A DNA stretch of 64,000 nucleotides, taken from NCBI GenBank assembly GCA_903915655.1, contig CAIWTU010000083.1:62001-126000 (forward strand), written 5' to 3'. The notes below the pieces were generated by a model. The model saw only the letters and a program-made list of their open reading frames with translations. It was not told where the DNA came from and ran no database searches. A program made the position numbers and the translations under genes. Source of the DNA: an uncultured Geobacter sp. GTDB lineage: Bacteria; Desulfobacterota; Desulfuromonadia; Geobacterales; Geobacteraceae. Shown here piece by piece: positions 45,124 through 57,629 of the stretch (within the stretch, counting starts at the first letter, position 1; each line of letters begins with the position of its first letter).

Positions 45124-45480
45124 TTAACGGTTCAATATCCATCCTTTTCCCCTACACTTAAGACAGGCCATTGCCGGGGCCGAAGAGTCATCGCCTGAAC
45201 CTCTACACACAGGACAGGAAACAGTCGACTGCTGCGGTCGATAGACAGAACCCCTGCCGCCACAGGTGGTACAGGTAAGAGTCTTGACTGCCCCGGTACC
45301 CTGGCAATGGGCGCAAAGCACCGCCGGCGATTGGACTAAAACTTTGCCACTCCCCCCACAGACACAGCAGGTGGATAGGGAAGACATGACATCGAAGGGG
45401 TCTCTGCCCCGACCGCTACAAAAAGCACACGTCAGCTCCTCACAGGCCACCGACCCCCGGCTGGTACGCGCATTGTTCAT
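45124..45480 (-). CDS. DnaJ-type zinc-finger protein without J domain
   Basis: A 118-residue protein built of six CxxCxGxG units: CAFCSGRG, CCVCGGSG, CAHCQGTG, CTTCGGRG, CPVCRGSG and CLKCRGKG. DnaJ itself has four, binding two zinc ions. There is no J domain and no substrate-binding C domain, so it cannot drive DnaK alone. It may hold or pass unfolded gas-vesicle subunits. Placed between the GvpC-like and gvpN genes. Confidence 0.85.
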   Translation of the reverse strand: MNNARTSRGSVACEELTCAFCSGRGRDPFDVMSSLSTCCVCGGSGKVLVQSPAVLCAHCQGTGAVKTLTCTTCGGRGSVYRPQQSTVSCPVCRGSGDDSSAPAMACLKCRGKGWILNR

Positions 45481-46930: not shown

Positions 46931-47149
46931 TTATGCCGGAGTTGCTGCACTCGCGGTAAGACCAATCGCCTCGGCGTACTTGAGGTAGGTCTCAACCGAA
47001 GCAATAACCACCCTAGCCTCGATGGAAAGCAGCTCAATACCGACCAGAGATACTTTCACCCAAGCATCGATCACGATACCTTTGTCCAAGATACGATCGA
47101 CGACTTCTGCCAAACTCGAAGAATCTGTTGATTTCTGTACTTTTGCCAT
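46931..47149 (-). CDS. gvpA: Major gas vesicle shell protein GvpA (copy 2, promoter-proximal)
   Basis: A 72-residue protein identical to copy 1. Being the first gene after the sigma-54 promoter and followed by a stabilising stem, it is expected to be the most highly made gene of the locus. Ribosome site AAGGAGG. Tandem copies of gvpA raise shell supply, as in several cyanobacteria. Confidence 0.97.
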
Positions 47150-47225: not shown

Positions 47226-47241
47226 AGCAACATTTGTGCCA
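47226..47241 (-). promoter_or_regulatory. Sigma-54 promoter of the gvpA operon
   Basis: On the minus strand TGGCAC-AAATG-TTGCT, a full match to the RpoN consensus (GG and GC 10 bases apart). Start near 47215, leader ~65 bases to the gvpA ATG at 47149. No other -24/-12 element of this quality is seen in the locus. Confidence 0.88.
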
Positions 47242-47333: not shown

Positions 47334-47384
47334 TATGGAATCGTAACTATGGAATCCATTCCTAGTATGACAGGAAGGCATTCC
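47334..47384. promoter_or_regulatory. Likely activator-binding array (UAS) for the gvpA promoter
   Basis: GGAA-N4-TTCC palindromes at 47351-47362 and 47373-47384, centres 22 bp (two helix turns) apart, plus a TATGGAA half-site at 47334-47340. They sit about 130-165 bp upstream of the predicted start, right after the receiver gene stop. Same arms and 4-base spacer as the palindrome at 55487-55504. Confidence 0.7.
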
Positions 47385-47765
47385 CTACCCTGTAGCGTAG
47401 CGGGTAAGCACGGAGACAATCTCATCATGATCGAAGGGTTTGCCGACGAATGCTGTGATCAGCCCCGACTGGATGGCCCCCTCAATTGTCAGGTCATCCT
47501 GGTAGAAATAGCCGGAAACGATGACGATGGGGAGATGGGCTTCGGTTTTGCGGAGTTGTCGTGCCAATTCAAGACCGTCGATATCCGGGAGTTTGGCGTC
47601 GAGAAAGGCCATTCCGAATTTATTGCTCTCTGTCAGGGCAATTGCTTCTGTGGCGCTCAAAGCCTTCATGCTGACGAAACCCGCTTTGCTGATGATATTT
47701 TCAAGAATCCAGCACATCTCGGGCTCGTCATCCACAACGAGAATCGGGGCGTATTTTCCGTTCAT
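47385..47765 (-). CDS. Single-domain response regulator (CheY-like)
   Basis: A 126-residue receiver. Acidic pair 'VVDDEPEM' at 11-16, phospho-acceptor Asp56 in 'AFLDAKLPDIDG', and Lys in 'VGKPFD'. No output domain, so it passes phosphate or binds a partner. The ATG at 47765 overlaps the kinase stop by 4 bases; the longer open frame is the kinase's shadow. The activator sites begin right after its stop. Confidence 0.9.
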   Translation of the reverse strand: MNGKYAPILVVDDEPEMCWILENIISKAGFVSMKALSATEAIALTESNKFGMAFLDAKLPDIDGLELARQLRKTEAHLPIVIVSGYFYQDDLTIEGAIQSGLITAFVGKPFDHDEIVSVLTRYATG

Positions 47766-49264
47766 GATTCGTTCCCTGCAAAACAGATCGGTAATATTAT
47801 GGTAAAGGTGCTCCCCCGGTTTTCTACGCTTTCCACAGTGATGGTCCCCTGGTGTTGCCTTACGATAGAATAGCAGAGAGAGAGACCGAGCCCGGTACCT
47901 TTTCCCATAACGGAAGTCGTATAAAAAGGATCGAAGATTTTTCCGATTTCCCGGGAGGAGATGCCGCAACCGGTATCCGTAACATCAACCTGGACCTCGG
48001 AGCGGATCGTCTTAACTTCAATTCCGAGGCGACCACCGTTCGGCATGGCGTTGATGGCATTCAGGAAAAGATTCATGTAAACCTGTTGCAGCAGTGTGGC
48101 CACCCCTCTCACCATCACCGGTTCCTGAGGATAGGATGAATTGATTTCGATCTTGAGGATATTAGCATGATAGGTTACCAGTGTCAGGGTTTCCCTGATC
48201 AGGGAAACCAGATTAACCAGGGTGGTTCGGGTCGTTGTCGAAGGATGAGAATATTTCAGGAGATTCTCTATGATCAGCGAGGTCCGCTGGATCCCCTTGT
48301 GGATCTTTTCCGCGCACTCCTGGCGAAACTCCGGCGTGCCGTCCTCTTCCATAAGAAACTGGGCACTCGATGAGCAGACGGCCAGGGGATTTCTGATTTC
48401 GTGGGCGATGCCGCCCGCCATAACCCCGAGGGCGGCAAATTTCTGGGACTGATGCAGTTCTGTCTCAAATTTCCGTCTTTCGGTCAAGTCCCGGCCTACA
48501 GCGACAACACCCGCCGTCTGATTGAAGCTGTCCTTCATCGGAGAAAAGGCCCAGGAAACGGTAATGAATGTCCCGGTGCTTGTCCGCAAGGGGCATTCCT
48601 TCATCTGGGTATGTTTGCTGGTATCGATGTGGGACAGAATGTCCTGGATCTCCTTGCGGTCCTCATCAAGACAGAAGTCGGTAAAGAGGCGTTCCCGCAC
48701 CAAAGCCGCGGTATAACCGGAGAGTCTCTCCGCCGACGAGTTCCAGGTCAGGATAACACCGTTTCTGTCCATAGAGAGAATAAGGTCGCTTGCGCTCTCG
48801 ACGATACTCGCCAGGTGCCGCTCCACCCGCTGGACCTCTCTGCTCAGACGCACCTGCTCCGTCACATCGTCCATAAGGAGGACCGCCCCTTCCACCCGGC
48901 CCAGCCAGGTAAAGGGGAGTATGCTGTAGTAATAGATGCGGATAGGCACCCCGGGAGCACGGTATGTCATCCGCTCCCCCTTGGACGGTTGATTTTTTTC
49001 GATAACCTGGAGGATCCGCTTGGTAATATCCATCTGGTCGAGGATGATGGAAGGGAATACCTCTTCCAACCGGTAGCCTACAGTATTCGCGAGAGTCCGT
49101 TGTCCCTTTTCGAGAAAATTGCGATTCGCCGAGACGATCCGCATGCTTTGGTCGATCAGGAGGACGGACGATGGGATAGCATCCAGTAGCATGGCATAAA
49201 GCCGCTCGTATCTTCCTGAAAGCTCATCTCCTGAAGCAATCGATGTTTTGTATTCCATTGTCAA
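47762..49264 (-). CDS. PAS-domain sensor histidine kinase in the gas-vesicle locus
   Basis: A 500-residue soluble kinase: no membrane span. Two PAS domains (~20-135, ~148-265), then HisKA with phospho-His288 in 'GGIAHEIRNPLAV' and an HATPase domain with 'NLFLNAINAM', 'DTGCGIS' and 'GKGTGLGLSLCYSIV'. PAS domains may bind haem, flavin or another ligand, so it senses a cytoplasmic signal. Pairs with the receiver gene by a 4-base overlap. Confidence 0.92.
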   Translation of the reverse strand: MTMEYKTSIASGDELSGRYERLYAMLLDAIPSSVLLIDQSMRIVSANRNFLEKGQRTLANTVGYRLEEVFPSIILDQMDITKRILQVIEKNQPSKGERMTYRAPGVPIRIYYYSILPFTWLGRVEGAVLLMDDVTEQVRLSREVQRVERHLASIVESASDLILSMDRNGVILTWNSSAERLSGYTAALVRERLFTDFCLDEDRKEIQDILSHIDTSKHTQMKECPLRTSTGTFITVSWAFSPMKDSFNQTAGVVAVGRDLTERRKFETELHQSQKFAALGVMAGGIAHEIRNPLAVCSSSAQFLMEEDGTPEFRQECAEKIHKGIQRTSLIIENLLKYSHPSTTTRTTLVNLVSLIRETLTLVTYHANILKIEINSSYPQEPVMVRGVATLLQQVYMNLFLNAINAMPNGGRLGIEVKTIRSEVQVDVTDTGCGISSREIGKIFDPFYTTSVMGKGTGLGLSLCYSIVRQHQGTITVESVENRGSTFTIILPICFAGNES

Positions 49265-50119: not shown

Positions 50120-50908
50120 TTACTGAAGCGCCGGGACGAAGTGGTAGGGGGGCCAGGGACCGTGAAGCTCGATTTGAAGCCCCTCGGATTCGTGACTTCG
50201 GTTCCATTCATCGATAATTTGCTCCAGGATGGCAACGGCCCCGTCTGGAACGAGGAGGGCAGTGTGAAAAAAGAGCTCTTCGTCCCTCCCCGTGACCTCC
50301 CGTGACTGGAGACGACATTTACTTAACCCCACCGACGTCTCCTTAGCCAACGCTTCGATATCTTCCCCAATTCCATTCAGCCAGGAGGTCATCGCCTTAT
50401 CGACCGTCCCCTTTATTTTCTGCTCCAGAAGATAACGTCTCCCTGGAGGGAGTCCTTCCAACTGTTCCTGTTCCGCTTCCATACGCTCTGCAGTAATCCT
50501 CGCCCGGGCCTGGAGTAGGTCGGCATACCCCTTGAGGGTCCATTCCTTCTTACCCTCAGTATCCTGAAAAAACTTCTTCAAGACCTCCTGATTCTGCCAG
50601 AGTGGTTCCGCCGCAGCCAGCGAGGAGAATACCGTGCCAAACCGGACGGGGAGGACGGGGCCCTGCTCCATGGCGGCCATGACGACCTCTTCGTGTCGCA
50701 GCGCCCTGGGGGCCACCCACGCCAGATTTTCCAGTTTCTCACAGGCAGAGGGGCTGGAAAAGTCGTCAAGATCGACCTCGGCCAGGACGGCGGCGACCTC
50801 CCCGACGACCTCGACAAAAAGGGGATGTTCCCCGTCAATCCCGTTCCCGGAGAGCTCCGGAAGGGGGTCGGCCGGGGTCAGACAAAAAAGATAGATCCCC
50901 GGGTTCAT
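50120..50908 (-). CDS. Gas vesicle protein GvpF/GvpL (copy 3)
   Basis: A 262-residue GvpF/L protein with 'YLFCLTPA', 'VLPVRFGTVFSS' and 'LHGPWPPYHFVP'. Its ATG overlaps the stop of the CDC48-type gene by 4 bases, so the two are co-translated; direct contact between them is plausible. Confidence 0.9.
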   Translation of the reverse strand: MNPGIYLFCLTPADPLPELSGNGIDGEHPLFVEVVGEVAAVLAEVDLDDFSSPSACEKLENLAWVAPRALRHEEVVMAAMEQGPVLPVRFGTVFSSLAAAEPLWQNQEVLKKFFQDTEGKKEWTLKGYADLLQARARITAERMEAEQEQLEGLPPGRRYLLEQKIKGTVDKAMTSWLNGIGEDIEALAKETSVGLSKCRLQSREVTGRDEELFFHTALLVPDGAVAILEQIIDEWNRSHESEGLQIELHGPWPPYHFVPALQ

Positions 50909-53040
50909 ACCATTCCCCTGCGCACTTCCTCTATGGCCTCTTCGATATCCTGAAGCCGGATAAGGATGACCGGTTCTCCCTCCCCAGCATTTTCCAGGGT
51001 CGCAACCGCACGGCGCACGGCGGTCATGGCAGCCTTGCGTACAACGGCTGCGATGTCGGCCCCGCTGAAGCCTTCTGTTTTCCGGGCCAAAGCGGCAACT
51101 TGTATCTTTTTGGCCAGCGGTTTCTGACGGAGATGTACGGCAAAGATCGCCTCCCTGTCATTCTCGTCAGGCATTTTCATTTCGACGATGTCGTCGAAGC
51201 GCCCCGGTCTGACGACCGCAGCGTCGAGCATATCCAGTCGGTTGGTCGCCCCAAGGACGAGAACCCCCCGGAGTTCGTCGATCCCGTCAAACTCTGCCAG
51301 GAACTGGCTCAAGATCCGCTCCGAGACATGAGAATCCGACGACCCTGCACTCCTGGTCGGCACAAGGGCATCGATCTCATCGAAGAATATGATGCAGGGG
51401 GCAGCCTGTCTCGCCTTGTGAAATATTTCCCTCACCCCTTTTTCCGACTCCCCGACCCATTTGGACATCAGGGCCGGTCCCTTGACAGAGATGAAATTCA
51501 CCCGGCTTTCCGTAGCAATAGCCTTGGCCATCATGGTTTTACCGCACCCCGGTGGTCCAACAAGCAGAATACCCTTTGGCGGCGTTACACCCCCTTTTTC
51601 AAAAAGGTGGGGATACTTCAGTGGCCACTCTACGGCCTCTATCAGGCGCTCCTTCAGTGAACCAAGACCACCCACATCCTCCCAGTGGACATTAGGGGAT
51701 TCAACGAAGACTTCCCGGATAGCCGAGGGTTCAATCTCACGCAGGGCCGTCAGGAAATCATCCATCCGGACCTCGAGCTTCGCAAGGGTTTCGTAGGGAA
51801 TCCCGGTCTGACCGAAATCGATATCCCCCATGATCTGGCGGAGGCAACTCATAGCCGCCTCACGGCAGAGGGCCTCCAGATCCGCCCCGACGAAACCGTG
51901 GGTGATTTCGGCCAGGTGTTCCATCTGTACATCGCTGGCGAGAGGCATCCCCCGGCTGTGGATCTCAAGTATCTCGAGACGGCCGCACCGATCCGGGATC
52001 GGAATAACGATTTCCCGGTCAAAACGGCCCGGACGCCGCAGAGCCGGGTCGAGTGCGTTAGGGATGTTGGTTGCAGCGATGACGATCAGATTCTGCCTTT
52101 TGTTCAGGCCGTCCATAAGGGCAAGAAGCTGGGCCACAACCCGCTTTTCAACATCTCCGACAACGTTTTCCCGGCGGGGCGCAATGGCGTCAATCTCGTC
52201 AAGAAAGAGGATACTCGGTCCCTTCCGGGACGCCTCTTCGAAGATCTTCCGCAGATGGGCCTCGCTTTCGCCGTAGAACTTGTGGATGATCTCCGGCCCG
52301 CTGACGGAAAAGAAATTGGCCTCCGTCTCGTGGGCAATGGCACGCGCAATGAGGGTCTTCCCGCACCCAGGGGGGCCATAGAGGAGAACCCCCTTTGGGG
52401 CATCGATCCCGAGACGCTCAAAAACCTCCGGATAGCGAAGAGGGAGTTCGATCATCTCCCGGATGCGCTGGAGCTGGGATTTCAAACCACCAATATCTTC
52501 ATAGGCAAGGGTGCGACCGCCCCCTTCTTCTCCCTGAGACTTGCCAATGACGAGGATAGTGGTCGGATTGATGATAACCGGACCCTTGGGGGTCACAGAT
52601 TCTACCTTGAAAAAGGCGGCACGACTGCCAAAGAGGGCCGCCTGGATCTTGGCCCCCTCCATAACCGGAAGGCCGTCCAACAGGCTCCCGATGTACTGAA
52701 GATCCCGCTCCGACGGGGTGACGTTGGTCGGGGTCAGGACAATCCGTTCAGCCGCACGACACTTCATTTTGCTGATTTTAACCGTTTCGTCGAGGCCAAC
52801 GCCGGCGTTCTCGCGGGTCAGGCCGTCCAACTGGACCCGGGACTGGCCGCGGATCTCTTTATAGGCCGGCATCACCTTGCAGATGGCCTTACGCTTTCCC
52901 TCCACTTCCACCGTATCGCCGATCTCCGCCTGGAGTCGTTCGATATCTTCCGGCCCCATCCGGACAAGGGCGCGTCCGACATCCTTGGTCAATGCTTCCG
53001 TTACTTTCAGCTTGACAAACGGTCTTTCGGTCTCTTTCAT
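50905..53040 (-). CDS. CDC48/VAT-type double AAA ATPase
   Basis: A 711-residue protein. An N domain of the CDC48 kind (~8-165; 'DIERLQAEIGDTVEVEGKRK') precedes two full AAA modules. Walker A is GPPGCGKT at 222-229 and near 494-501; Walker B is 'LFLDEIDAIAP' and 'IFFDEIDALVP'; arginine fingers are in 'RRPGRFD' and 'VRPGRFD'. CDC48 proteins unfold or extract proteins. They are common in archaea and eukaryotes and rare in bacteria. Here it likely remodels gas-vesicle proteins. Confidence 0.92.
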   Translation of the reverse strand: MKETERPFVKLKVTEALTKDVGRALVRMGPEDIERLQAEIGDTVEVEGKRKAICKVMPAYKEIRGQSRVQLDGLTRENAGVGLDETVKISKMKCRAAERIVLTPTNVTPSERDLQYIGSLLDGLPVMEGAKIQAALFGSRAAFFKVESVTPKGPVIINPTTILVIGKSQGEEGGGRTLAYEDIGGLKSQLQRIREMIELPLRYPEVFERLGIDAPKGVLLYGPPGCGKTLIARAIAHETEANFFSVSGPEIIHKFYGESEAHLRKIFEEASRKGPSILFLDEIDAIAPRRENVVGDVEKRVVAQLLALMDGLNKRQNLIVIAATNIPNALDPALRRPGRFDREIVIPIPDRCGRLEILEIHSRGMPLASDVQMEHLAEITHGFVGADLEALCREAAMSCLRQIMGDIDFGQTGIPYETLAKLEVRMDDFLTALREIEPSAIREVFVESPNVHWEDVGGLGSLKERLIEAVEWPLKYPHLFEKGGVTPPKGILLVGPPGCGKTMMAKAIATESRVNFISVKGPALMSKWVGESEKGVREIFHKARQAAPCIIFFDEIDALVPTRSAGSSDSHVSERILSQFLAEFDGIDELRGVLVLGATNRLDMLDAAVVRPGRFDDIVEMKMPDENDREAIFAVHLRQKPLAKKIQVAALARKTEGFSGADIAAVVRKAAMTAVRRAVATLENAGEGEPVILIRLQDIEEAIEEVRRGMV

Positions 53041-53222
53041 AGTCCCTCACCTATCCTGTCTGACTGCCAGCAAAATGCTGGAGGAAACCTTTCTCGTCAT
53101 TGCTGTCTTGAGCCATAATCCGGGGTTCAAAACGCTAAATTCCCACCTCCTGATGAAGCCGGATGAGGCATGCAAATACAAATATGGATCGCTGGATGCC
53201 GATCAGACACCATTCCCACAAT
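53041..53222 (-). other. Gap between gvpH and the CDC48-type gene
   Basis: 182 bases. A near-match to the palindrome (GGAA-N4-TTCT, 53083-53094) is present but could be chance. A TGGC-like pair at ~53110 has 9-base spacing, so it is not a valid -24/-12 promoter. Confidence 0.35.
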
Positions 53223-53912
53223 TTATCCTGACTTCTCGCAGCGTATGGTCACGATACCGTTGTTGCAGGTAACCGTTATTTTTTCCCTTATAAGCGCGTG
53301 ACTCAGAAGTATCTCCTTCCGATATTTCTTTTCCCCCTTTTCGGCGGATATCGTCAGGACGTCGTCCCGGACTTCGAGACTGATATCATCCGGCCCTACG
53401 CCCGGCATTTCCGCAATCAGGGTGGTGGCTACAGCATCCTCAAAGAGATCGATAAGCGGTTCGTGGATCTCCTGCACCACCACCGCGCCGGTTTTCTTGT
53501 CCTTGCGGATATTGCCGAACGGCTCTACCTTGATCCGGTCATCCTTCCCCCCAAGGGCTGTTTTAAAGGTAAAACCATAGACCCCCTTGACACCCCCTTC
53601 TTTGGAGGGGAAGGTAAACTCCCCCTTCTCGGAAACGTTCTCCCCTTTTTCCGAGATCTCGTTGAGTTTTTCGGCGATGTCGGTCAGACCGCTGAGGATG
53701 CGGCTGAACCTGCTCTCGCCCCCCCCTTTTTCTCCGGCAGAGCCTTCTGCGTCCACCCGATCCTCTTTTGCCCCCTGGCGCTTGGAAAGGCGTTCCCCCG
53801 CTTCGGCCAGACTACCAAGGTTGTTAATGAACCCTGACAAACCACTGAAAATTCCGCCCACTACGTCGCCCCGGTCGGAGTCCGTTTTCTTCTTATCTGA
53901 TTTGCGTTTCAT
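53223..53912 (-). CDS. gvpH: Gas vesicle protein GvpH (Hsp20-like)
   Basis: A 229-residue protein. The first ~130 residues are charged and Gly/Ser-rich, with a short hydrophobic-Gly stretch ('GGIFSGLSGFINNLGSLAE'). The C-terminal part (~145-225) is an alpha-crystallin-like domain ('EMPGVGPDDISLEVRDDVLTIS'). This layout is that of bacterial GvpH. Small heat-shock type holding of GvpA is the likely role. The ATG at 53912 lies inside the 3' end of the NtrC-type gene (20-base overlap). Confidence 0.88.
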   Translation of the reverse strand: MKRKSDKKKTDSDRGDVVGGIFSGLSGFINNLGSLAEAGERLSKRQGAKEDRVDAEGSAGEKGGGESRFSRILSGLTDIAEKLNEISEKGENVSEKGEFTFPSKEGGVKGVYGFTFKTALGGKDDRIKVEPFGNIRKDKKTGAVVVQEIHEPLIDLFEDAVATTLIAEMPGVGPDDISLEVRDDVLTISAEKGEKKYRKEILLSHALIREKITVTCNNGIVTIRCEKSG

Positions 53913-55323
53913 CGTCACTCTCCCCTCCGATTTGCTCAATGCCGAATTTTTTTGCCTTTGTGTGCATGGTCTTGTAATCAACCCGCAACAACCTGGCAGC
54001 CCGTGCCTTATTGCCGCCGGTAAATTTGAGCACCTGGGAGAGAACTTCCTTTTCCACGGCAAGGACGGACTGCTGGACAATTTCACCTAATGATGCGTTC
54101 TCCCAGGGCATTAGCACAACCTTTGAGGAAAAGGCGAGTCTAGGCGTGGAGGCCGGTTTGATGCTGAGATCCTCTGCCATGATTGTCTCACCGGCCGCCA
54201 GGGCCGCCCGCCGAATGACCGAACGGAGCTGGCGGACATTTCCCGGCCAGTTGTATGAAACCAACAGTTCCATCGCCTCGGCGGTAAAGGAGGTGATCAT
54301 TTTTTTCAGTTCTACGTTGGCCAGATCAAGAAAACGCTTGGCCAGGTAAGGAATATCTTCTTTTCGATCCCTAAGCGCCGGAACATGGATAGTAAATTCA
54401 CTCAGGCGGTAATAGAAATCCTTTCTGAAGGTGCCGCTCGCTGCCATTTCTTCAAGGTCCTCGTTGGTCGCCACAATGAGGCGAATATCGACCGGCACCG
54501 GTTTGGTCCCACCAACCCTGTTAAGCTGCCGGTCCTGAAGCACCCGGAGAAACTTCGCCTGGGAACCGATGGGCATATTCCCTATCTCGTCCATAAACAG
54601 GGTGCCACCGTGCGCCAGCTCGAATTTGCCTATTTTCAGCCGATCCGCCCCCGTGAAGGATCCTTTCTCGTGGCCAAAAAGTTCGCTCTCCAGAAGATTC
54701 TCAGGGATGGCGCCGCAATCCACCGCCATGAAAGGCGCCGCCACCCTGCCGCTGTCTCCATGGATTGCCCTCGCGACAAGTTCTTTTCCCGAACCCGTTT
54801 CGCCTGTAATGATCACTGAAAAATCCGATTTAGCCACCCGGTGAATATCGGCGGCGAGGCGGTTGATCTCGTCGCTCGGCCCCATGCTCTCGATGAGGCT
54901 GAAGTTTCCATGATATTGATCAGCCATTTTTTTCAATCTTTTATTCAATTGGCCTTCCGCCAGGGCCCTACGGGCAATCCAGAGAACCTCGTTATTGTCG
55001 AACGGCTTGGCAACGTAATCATAGGCCCCACCTTTCATGACCTCGACGGCCTGGCGAATATCGGTGTACGCCGTGATGAGTACTACCGGCAGACCGTCAT
55101 CTATATCCTTTATTTTTTTGAGGACTTCTATGCCGCTGAGACCCGGCATGCGGACATCCAGAAGGACAAGATCCGGGTTCTCCTGGGAGATCTGTCGCAT
55201 CGCCTGAAGACCGTCCGGTGCGGTGACAACCCGAAATCCCTCTTTTACCAGAAGTCGCGTCAAAATCTTCCTGATTTCCTCTTCATCATCAACTACCAGA
55301 ACACATGCCGTTGGATCAGACAT
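53893..55323 (-). CDS. NtrC-family sigma-54 activator in the gas-vesicle locus
   Basis: A 476-residue response regulator: receiver (1-120, phospho-acceptor Asp56), AAA+ domain (Walker A GETGSGKE ~174-181; sigma-54 contact loop GSFTGA at 221-226, one change from the usual GAFTGA), and a Fis-type HTH at the end ('GGNKARAARLLRVDYKTMHTK'). It should turn on RpoN promoters when phosphorylated. The palindrome upstream of its gene matches the array before gvpA, so both may be its targets. Overlaps gvpH. Confidence 0.95.
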   Translation of the reverse strand: MSDPTACVLVVDDEEEIRKILTRLLVKEGFRVVTAPDGLQAMRQISQENPDLVLLDVRMPGLSGIEVLKKIKDIDDGLPVVLITAYTDIRQAVEVMKGGAYDYVAKPFDNNEVLWIARRALAEGQLNKRLKKMADQYHGNFSLIESMGPSDEINRLAADIHRVAKSDFSVIITGETGSGKELVARAIHGDSGRVAAPFMAVDCGAIPENLLESELFGHEKGSFTGADRLKIGKFELAHGGTLFMDEIGNMPIGSQAKFLRVLQDRQLNRVGGTKPVPVDIRLIVATNEDLEEMAASGTFRKDFYYRLSEFTIHVPALRDRKEDIPYLAKRFLDLANVELKKMITSFTAEAMELLVSYNWPGNVRQLRSVIRRAALAAGETIMAEDLSIKPASTPRLAFSSKVVLMPWENASLGEIVQQSVLAVEKEVLSQVLKFTGGNKARAARLLRVDYKTMHTKAKKFGIEQIGGESDDETQIR

Positions 55324-55706
55324 ATACTTTTTTCCCCTTATAATAAGGACGTTTCATCGGAGTAATGCCCCCGGATATCTGCCGGCAGAAAGCGTACACT
55401 GGCGTACGGATACGAATGGCTCTGCGCGATTGGAACGTACGGGAGAGTTCGTGAGCCGTGACACTTTTCCACCGAAGGAGACAAAATATGGAATTACTTC
55501 CATAGAATCATTTCCCTATCTATAAGGAACCCGGATCGATCGGCCCGCGCAATTTCCTATCGAACAGCAGAGGCATCGCGACACTGTCAGGGGTGATGAC
55601 CCGTTACACGCAACTCTACCACCTGCTTGTCTGCATTAACCATACCCTGGAGAAAATAAGGCTGCGCTGGGGAACCGGCAGGCGGTCCTGCGAAGTGACC
55701 CCGGCG
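55324..55706 (-). other. 383-base regulatory gap before the NtrC-type gene
   Basis: No gene. Holds the 18-bp palindrome at 55487-55504 and a weaker AGAA-N4-TTCC at 55504-55515. Near the gene a TATTAT/TATAAG stretch could be a -10. I see no -24/-12 pair with correct spacing, so this gene is probably read by sigma-70. Confidence 0.5.
55487..55515. promoter_or_regulatory. Palindromic operator upstream of the NtrC-type gene
   Basis: TATGGAATTACTTCCATA is a perfect 18-bp palindrome of the form TATGGAA-N4-TTCCATA. A second, weaker AGAA-N4-TTCC overlaps its edge 14 bp on. Same core as the gvpA array. Probably autoregulation. Confidence 0.65.
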
Positions 55707-57629
55707 TCACTCGTCAGATAGGGGGAGCTCCACGATAAATGACGCCCCACCCAGATCATTATTCTCGACGCAAAGCGTCCCTTTGTGAAGCGAAACGATG
55801 TTCCTGCAGATGGTCAGGCCGAGCCCGGTACCTTTTCCTGTATCTTTGGTCGTAAAAAAGGGATCAAAAATTCTGTTCATCTCCCCTGCAGCAACACCGC
55901 AACCATTATCGGCGACAATCACGCGGACAGAGGCCGGCTTATCGGTACCGATTGTAGATTGAACGGTAATAAGGAGTCGCTTCTCCTCGGTACGGCAGAG
56001 GGCGTCGCAAGCGTTGAAGATGAGGTGGGTCATCAGCTTGAGCAGACCGTCCATTCCCATCTTGACGGGGATGCGCGCCAGCGGGGGGGTGTAAACAACA
56101 GAGACCTGCTCCTCCCGCGTTCTGCTCTCGGAGATAATAAGACTTAAGGCAATCACCTCTCGCAGATCACAAATCAACTGTACCATCGGCGGAGAGGGGG
56201 ACAATTGATTCAACTTTTGGCTGATCGTAACGATCCTTTTCAGCTGTTCCCGGCAGATACGCACCCCCTCCAGAGCCTCACAGGGGAGCGGTTCTTCTTG
56301 CATGAATTGGAGTCGCGAGGAGATGATGCTGACGGGATTCAGGAGTTCGTGGGCAACGCCGGCCACCAGACGGCCGACCGCAGCCTCCTTCTCGAACTGG
56401 ATCAGCCAGTCCCTTGCCTCCTGCATCTCCTGCATGTTATCGACAAGGGCCTGTTCATTCAGCTTGCGGTCCGTGATGTCCTGATGGGTACCCATCACCA
56501 GGAATGGCCTCCCCTCCTGCGTCCAGTCGGTCACCCTGCCCCGATCGAGGACCCAGACCCAGCTGCCGTTCCGGTGTTTCATCCTGACCTCGCACTCGTA
56601 GTAGTCAAGTTCTCCCCGGAAATGTTTCTCCATCAGAGCGTAACTGGTCTCAAGATCGTCCGGGTGAGTAAATTTGGCCCATGTATCGATGGAGGTGGGA
56701 GATAGCTCCTCCAGGGTGTAGCCGATAATCTCCGCCCAACGTTCGCTGAAGACTGTCGCACCGGTTTGCACGTTCCACTCCCAGGTCCCGACACGGGTAT
56801 TATAGATGATGGCAACAAGCTTCCTACGCTCTTCCAGCAGCGTCTTCTCCGTCTGTTTGAGGGGAGTAATGTCCACCATTGTGGTCAACAAACAGGGAGC
56901 ATTCCCTGACATAATACGATCGGCGGAAAAAAGCCCGTGGCGGATAGTTCCGTCCTTGCAGCGGACCCTTGTCTCCACTCCCCGGGCGCGCCCTTCCCTT
57001 TCCAGCATCTCAAGAACTTCGGCCCGCGTGCAAGGATCGACCATGATCCTAAGTTCCCCTGCCGTCTTGCCTACGACCTCGGAAAGGGGGTATCCCAGTG
57101 TCGTCAGGAAAACCTCGTTGACCTTGATAAAACGGTCATCGGACAGGGAGGAAACCGCCATGAGCACCGGATTGCTATGAAATGACCAAGAAAATAGCTC
57201 TTCCGACTGCTTCAGCAGCGACATATCCTTTACCACGGCGAACAACGCCAGTTTCCCATTCCACTCCCCCTGAACGATGCGGGTCTCCACCGGGATTTCC
57301 GTACCATCCCGGGCGACAATGGGAACCAGGCAGAAGTCGGCCGGCACGGCAGTCACAAGGCGCGCAGCCTCGTCCCGAAGATCGGGCGAATAAATGGAGA
57401 GAAACGGACGGCCGACAAGCTCTGCTTCGCCATAACCGAGGCGCCGGCAGGCCACCTGGTTAACATGGATCATCACGCCGTCCGGATCCAGCACGAACAA
57501 CAGGTCATTGATAGTATTGAACAAAGCCTCGAAATCGTCTTGAGAGCGGGCCAACGCCTGACGGCAGAGGATATCCAGAGGAGTTGGCGGAGGAGGTGCC
57601 TCAACGTGGCAGTTATCCTTGCTGGTCAT
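55707..57629 (-). CDS. Multi-PAS sensor histidine kinase
   Basis: A 640-residue soluble kinase with three or four PAS domains (~30-140, ~145-260, ~275-395; 'GVMIHVNQVACRRLGYG', 'GTWEWNVQTGATVFSERWAE'). The H-box is 'GVAHELLNPVSII' with His near 426, then an HATPase with 'DNGCGVA' and 'GKGTGLGLTICRNIV'. It is the likely partner of the NtrC-type regulator just downstream, with the operator between. Confidence 0.92.
   Translation of the reverse strand: MTSKDNCHVEAPPPPTPLDILCRQALARSQDDFEALFNTINDLLFVLDPDGVMIHVNQVACRRLGYGEAELVGRPFLSIYSPDLRDEAARLVTAVPADFCLVPIVARDGTEIPVETRIVQGEWNGKLALFAVVKDMSLLKQSEELFSWSFHSNPVLMAVSSLSDDRFIKVNEVFLTTLGYPLSEVVGKTAGELRIMVDPCTRAEVLEMLEREGRARGVETRVRCKDGTIRHGLFSADRIMSGNAPCLLTTMVDITPLKQTEKTLLEERRKLVAIIYNTRVGTWEWNVQTGATVFSERWAEIIGYTLEELSPTSIDTWAKFTHPDDLETSYALMEKHFRGELDYYECEVRMKHRNGSWVWVLDRGRVTDWTQEGRPFLVMGTHQDITDRKLNEQALVDNMQEMQEARDWLIQFEKEAAVGRLVAGVAHELLNPVSIISSRLQFMQEEPLPCEALEGVRICREQLKRIVTISQKLNQLSPSPPMVQLICDLREVIALSLIISESRTREEQVSVVYTPPLARIPVKMGMDGLLKLMTHLIFNACDALCRTEEKRLLITVQSTIGTDKPASVRVIVADNGCGVAAGEMNRIFDPFFTTKDTGKGTGLGLTICRNIVSLHKGTLCVENNDLGGASFIVELPLSDE

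Follow-up and report, generated by a model that had tools for sequence, protein, structure and literature searches.

A probable palindromic operator shared by gvpA and the operon of an adjacent NtrC-type regulator suggests autoregulation in a gas-vesicle gene cluster

Results

A perfect palindrome in the leader of a regulator operon is probably an operator (enhancer site) for the adjacent NtrC-type regulator, serving both the gas-vesicle shell gene gvpA and the regulator's own operon. Found by motif search and matrix score in the window, the whole 64,000-nucleotide stretch of DNA that we analyzed, the palindrome TATGGAA-N4-TTCCATA (TATGGAATTACTTCCATA; 55487..55504; no strand was assigned to this or any other operator site) consists of two 7-bp arms around a 4-bp spacer and lies between a gene for a PAS-rich histidine kinase and that of the regulator, starting 181 bp before the regulator's ATG. 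Because the same motif stands before the shell gene and the regulator and recurs in relatives, the regulator probably governs vesicle formation as well as its own expression, and the array in the leader of its own operon makes control of its own level very likely.

The perfect palindrome that the first-pass annotation had placed at 55487-55515 was confirmed over positions 55487-55504, whereas the end at 55515 falls inside a second, imperfect site (CATAGAATCATTTCCCTA; 55501..55518) that overlaps the perfect one at an offset of 14 bp. A weak half-site, TAAGGAA (55523..55529; TTCCTTA at offset -36), follows at the 22-bp offset known from related arrays. The 14-bp offset is common to the gvpA array and the regulator-leader array; the 22-bp offset can be seen clearly before the window's gvpA and in the L041-L044 regulator leaders, and the window's own regulator leader has only the half-site at 55523-55529. 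In relatives, the regulator-leader site is kept at the same position within differing flanks.

The gvpA array comprises a half-site (TATGGAATCGTAACTATG; 47334..47351), an operator site found by motif search and matrix (TATGGAATCCATTCCTAG; 47348..47365) and a further operator site found by matrix at a 22-bp offset (ACAGGAAGGCATTCCCTA; 47370..47387). The palindrome had been described as a repeat of the arms and spacer of this array; arms and spacer are indeed common to both, although no gvpA copy is perfect. The array lies about 110-146 bp upstream of a predicted sigma-54 promoter (TGGCACAAATGTTGCT; 47226..47241, minus strand), the window's best sigma-54 match with a score of 15.3, and the promoter precedes the first copy of gvpA (72 aa; 46931..47149, minus strand). 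This order of operator, sigma-54 promoter and gene is the usual layout at gvpA, where a sigma-54 match of at least 12.8 lies between operator and gene, at -57 to -171, in all 20 of the 20 gvpA regions with an operator. Both marks of a bEBP target, a predicted -24/-12 promoter and an inverted-repeat site about 100 bp or more away, are thus present at gvpA.

The regulator (53893..55323, minus strand) has the AAA+ sigma-54 interaction domain and the HTH of a bEBP, with Pfam matches to PF00158 at 1e-67, HTH_8 at 6.8e-09 and a receiver at 1.9e-32, and its order of receiver, sigma-54 AAA+ domain and Fis-type HTH is that of NtrC/AtoC-type response regulators. Against NCBIfam it scores 448 of 714 bits for AtoC and 437 of 559 for NtrC, well below the cut-off of every named equivalog among the 25 models listed, and so is none of those by name. 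Its likely partner is the PAS-rich histidine kinase (55707..57629, minus strand), whose counterpart at the same place in L039 and L040 is 58-60% identical. A genome contig scan found regulator orthologs at 50-84% identity in L039-L055 and L091, the next matches reaching 43%; all orthologs precede hsp20- and cdc48-type genes, mostly with gvpF/L-type genes next and, in several longer contigs, gvpA later. No ortholog was found in 57 close relatives, where the best identity among the matches listed was 46%, and GvpN scored above its cut-off in 27 of 395 genomes of the phylum, among which the window's genome is the sole member of its family, order or class. This distribution indicates that the cluster has probably moved between lineages. 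The cluster regulator also occurs in assemblies named Lentisphaerae, Calditrichaeota, Terriglobia and Deltaproteobacteria (L046, L049, L050, L054 and others), which suggests transfer between phyla. The Hsp20-like protein and CDC48-type AAA+ ATPase encoded after the regulator (window 50905-54086) form a pair that is constant in the clusters, the CDC48 protein being 71-94% identical across them.

Palindromy alone is weak proof of an operator, since arithmetic predicts about four palindromes of this form (7-bp arms, 4-bp gap) per window (64,000/4^7); what counts is the match to the gvpA array. The exact 18-mer occurs at one place in the 3.36-Mb genome to which the window belongs. Allowing up to two mismatches gave 12 places in that genome versus 14 in a reversed control, an absence of excess that gives no sign of a wider regulon, and allowing three gave 5 matches in the window against a shuffle mean of 2.69, which is not unusual. 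With the mismatch searches unenriched, the evidence rests on the exact site, a matrix test and conservation. A weight matrix was trained on nine sites upstream of gvpA from eight loci and applied to everything else; it gave the window's regulator site a score of 22.4. In a control of 968,726 bases from 62 loci with only distant relatives of the regulator, two matches reached 15 and none reached 17. The window, L039-L055 and L091 together held 15 matches of at least 16, some of the gvpA matches among them being training sites, of which 14 lay upstream of gvpA or a regulator operon; the other, a strong match at L055:4874, lies inside an ORF and was set aside. In a further 29 stretches, considering the best three matches of each, at least 13 matches reached 16, every one upstream of gvpA or a regulator operon. 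The three other exact matches to TATGGAA-N4-TTCC in the window's own genome were rejected as members of a regulon outside the cluster, as they lie in stop-free stretches of 870-1419 nt that are probably coding.

Conservation before gvpA follows the recognition helix of the cluster's regulator. Counting those gvpA regions for which the upstream sequence sufficed and the cluster's regulator was known, taking the best gvpA copy of each and setting the site threshold at 14, we found an operator in 20 of the 23 clusters whose NtrC-type regulator has the window's helix, [IV]DYKT (window, L039, L040, L042, L044, L046, L048, L050, L155, L157, L159, L160, L161, L163, L164, L165, L169, L170, L171 and L181; in L160, L161, L163, L165 and L181 the regulator is on another contig of the same genome, and a single genome contains both the L165 and the L181 cluster). 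The remaining [IV]DYKT clusters have no good gvpA operator (L156, 10.3; L162, 6.8; L168, 7.5). None of the six clusters with another helix has the operator (L158, L166, L167, L173, L176 and L177; the L158 regulator is its genome's best match rather than a neighbor), and exclusion of the eight training loci leaves 12 of 15 versus 0 of 6. From this co-occurrence and the HTH domain we infer that the motif is very probably the binding site of the cluster's NtrC-type regulator, in agreement with the first-pass annotation, which had called it a probable binding motif and proposed looking for it at related loci, where its absence would have counted against the idea. In L166, L167, L173 and L177, the activator adjoining gvpA has the helix IDRMT or IDRVT and gvpA lacks such an operator; these form another class of cluster, in which a different operator is to be expected.

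At the regulator operon, scored with the same threshold of 14 upstream of the first gene (the regulator or an immediately preceding gene of about 200 aa), the operator is present in 11 of 23 loci (window, L039, L040, L041, L042, L043, L044, L055, L155, L157 and L164), all 11 sites being outside the training set. It is absent from the other 12 (L046, L047, L048, L051, L052, L054, L156, L168, L170, L171, L184 and L185), including L171, which was counted as lacking it despite a 14.7 site between its small gene and the regulator. Duplicates were removed before counting (L172 repeats the L048 contig, L186 that of L051 and L187 that of L156), and the count at the regulator also leaves out truncated loci (L045, L049, L050, L053, L091 and L159) and distant regulators (L162, L166, L167, L169, L173, L176, L177, L188 and L190). 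Most of the named loci are metagenome assemblies, and the loci are related to each other: on the regulator tree, the operator trait lies in three separate parts and requires three changes; among the window's closest relatives, every one with upstream sequence carries the site. The suggested autoregulation is thereby rendered likely, with an operator before 11 of 23 regulator operons, though not universal. In most related clusters (L041-L044, L046-L048, L051, L052, L054 and L055; e.g., L044:9385-9996), the conserved gene of about 200 aa separates the operator position from the regulator, but the window, L039 and L040 do not have it; its product has no Pfam match except a sub-threshold one to TraB/PrgY for the L157 copy.

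The two places where the operator occurs differ in layout. The usual order of operator, promoter and gene holds at gvpA, whereas at the regulator the promoter-like element precedes the operator. Here the window has a sigma-54-like -24/-12 element (GGGTATGGTTAATGCA; 55632..55647, minus strand) that is conserved in L039-L044, and in all 11 regulator operons with the operator the best same-strand sigma-54 match lies upstream of it, 103-233 bp away start to start (window 143, L039 129, L040 127, L041 140, L042 168, L043 233, L044 145, L055 165, L155 210, L157 211 and L164 103 bp). By our own simple weighting, which is not a published matrix, the element scores 11.8 in the window, L039, L040 and L044, 13.3 in L041-L043 and 13.8-14.3 in L055, L155, L157 and L164, so that 7 of 11 reach at least 13.3. 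Random 450-bp stretches reach 11.8 in 35% of cases, 13.3 in 4.7% and 13.8 in 2.1%; the window's element is therefore not significant by score alone, and the case for it rests on conservation. In an alignment of seven loci, the columns that do not vary across the kinase-to-gene interval are concentrated in [AG]GG[CT]AT[AG][AG]TT[CA]ATGCA and in the array. The 12 operons without an operator have element scores of at most 11.3 in 11 cases and 14.8 in L171; for the pairing of operator and element, the tree offers no more than two or three independent contrasts, a number that does not permit a test.

No sigma-54 promoter was found in the interval from the palindrome to the regulator gene, where the best scores are 7.5-10.8 in the 11 operons, and a sigma-70 scan of the intergenic region gave no match on the regulator strand and one weak match on the plus strand. 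In L041-L043 the element is almost a palindrome and might instead be a site for another regulator; a C-to-T change in its left half that is unmatched in the right half speaks for a -24/-12 element. With a sigma-54-like element upstream, the operator would sit in the transcribed leader: sigma-54 transcription starts about 12 bp after the GC element, which places the array inside the predicted transcript. In all 11 operons the position of the site would suit a 3' enhancer, although the window's putative promoter scores weakly (11.8).

Discussion

The DNA itself displays an operator common to gvpA and the regulator, the conservation of that operator, a sigma-54 match in front of gvpA and the opposite order of elements before the regulator, and we propose a mechanism that would account for these features. 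Sigma-54 activators bind paired sites as phosphorylated dimers, assemble into hexamers and, through a DNA loop, open the polymerase complex by ATP hydrolysis, a scheme that fits gvpA directly. In the window, the neighboring kinase would probably phosphorylate the regulator, which would occupy arrays of TATGGAA-N4-TTCCATA in the form of adjacent dimers. From an array about 91-312 bp upstream of the sigma-54 promoter of gvpA, the regulator's AAA+ domain would open the polymerase complex by looping and so allow synthesis of shell protein. At the putative operon of regulator, hsp20, cdc48 and gvpF/L-type genes, the array would lie in the leader, 103-233 bp downstream of an element that may act as the promoter.

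As to the sign of the feedback, we favor self-activation from downstream with possible self-limitation, activation from this position being somewhat more likely than repression. In its fullest form, which we put forward tentatively, a conserved downstream enhancer would use one operator in two opposite layouts, the regulator activating its own operon until bound activator blocks elongation and thereby timing buoyancy, an arrangement kept or regained in three lineages. Somewhat less probable is negative autoregulation, in which the leader array would act as a roadblock for polymerase arriving from the sigma-54-like promoter or by read-through from the kinase, capping the level of regulator. Such a roadblock agrees with the location of the array inside the predicted transcript, where it follows the promoter-like element in 11 of 11 operons, with sigma-54 scores that do not exceed 10.8 in the interval from array to gene, and with the precedent of Caulobacter FlbD, which reportedly both activates and represses through ftr sites. 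A sigma-54 promoter nonetheless requires an activator, and every operon with the operator also has the upstream sigma-54-like element, a constant company that suggests joint action of the two.

Less plausible still is that an outside sigma-54 activator or other DNA-binding protein owns the motif while the neighboring regulator reads something else. Genomes of this group encode tens of such activators (27 scored in the window's own genome), yet the motif tracks the helix type of each cluster's regulator (20 of 23 versus 0 of 6) and shows no excess elsewhere in the window's own genome. That the palindrome acts as a hairpin in the leader RNA is highly improbable, even though the predicted transcript of the regulator operon includes the array and the predicted fold has the 7-bp arms paired with each other: the sites at gvpA are upstream of the promoter, the TAGGGAA...TTCCATA form that recurs there would break the pairing, and the leader is no more folded than its shuffles (z -0.34) and matches no Rfam family, the two results by which we rejected an RNA element. 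A chance palindrome, for which the roughly four expected per window and the unenriched three-mismatch search could be cited, hardly deserves consideration, given that the sequence is that of the gvpA array, that its position is kept in relatives that differ around the site, and that its presence in 11 regulator operons already refutes the idea.

The favored reading, self-activation from downstream, resembles the FlbD/ftr system of Caulobacter, where the sites of a sigma-54 activator are reportedly 3' enhancers downstream of the promoter and one type of site serves several promoters with different outcomes. The Caulobacter system differs in controlling flagellar genes in a different cluster, and the sequence of the FlbD site is said to differ from the window's operator. 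FlbD is, moreover, described as controlled by FliX rather than by phosphorylation (PMC3096577).

Control of gas vesicles by sigma-54 and an NtrC-family regulator is already known from the published account of Serratia sp. ATCC 39006, according to which gvpA1 is preceded by a sigma-54 promoter and depends on the NtrC-family protein GvrA, while the mapped gvrA promoter is of the sigma-70 type (PMC4982088); expression of gvrA is reported as unchanged in an rpoN mutant (PMC11778176). As with GvrA, the regulator here is encoded inside the gvp cluster and a predicted sigma-54 promoter precedes the first gvpA (PMC4982088); unlike gvrA with its sigma-70-type promoter, the regulator operon here has a sigma-54-like element and an operator. 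In the accessible portions of the Serratia reports no operator of such kind is described (PMC4982088, PMC11778176). The operator sequence, the pairing of helix and operator and the layout of the regulator operon are what our analysis adds. In the open-licence literature we recognized no described gvp operator for the present group, the Serratia work being the only relevant account; a report on RpoN3 and gas vesicles in Cereibacter was set aside because, in the part available, it ties gvpN to CtrA and not to such an operator (PMC11999139).

Drawn entirely from sequence comparison, these findings supply a concrete candidate operator for what is probably the gas-vesicle on-switch of a large group of anaerobic bacteria from lakes and groundwater, together with a helix-to-operator rule that is open to testing in vitro. 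The reversed order of promoter and operator offers a natural case of a sigma-54 activator that may act from within a transcribed region, and, as gas-vesicle genes serve as ultrasound reporters, a defined native switch would be useful.

Two further features of the cluster were observed. A second kinase and receiver pair (window 47385-49264), kept in many related clusters, lies directly upstream of gvpA, so that two signaling pairs frame the gas-vesicle genes, and positions 45124-45480, between gvpN and the gvpA region, encode a small protein that is rich in cysteine and matches a DnaJ-type zinc finger.
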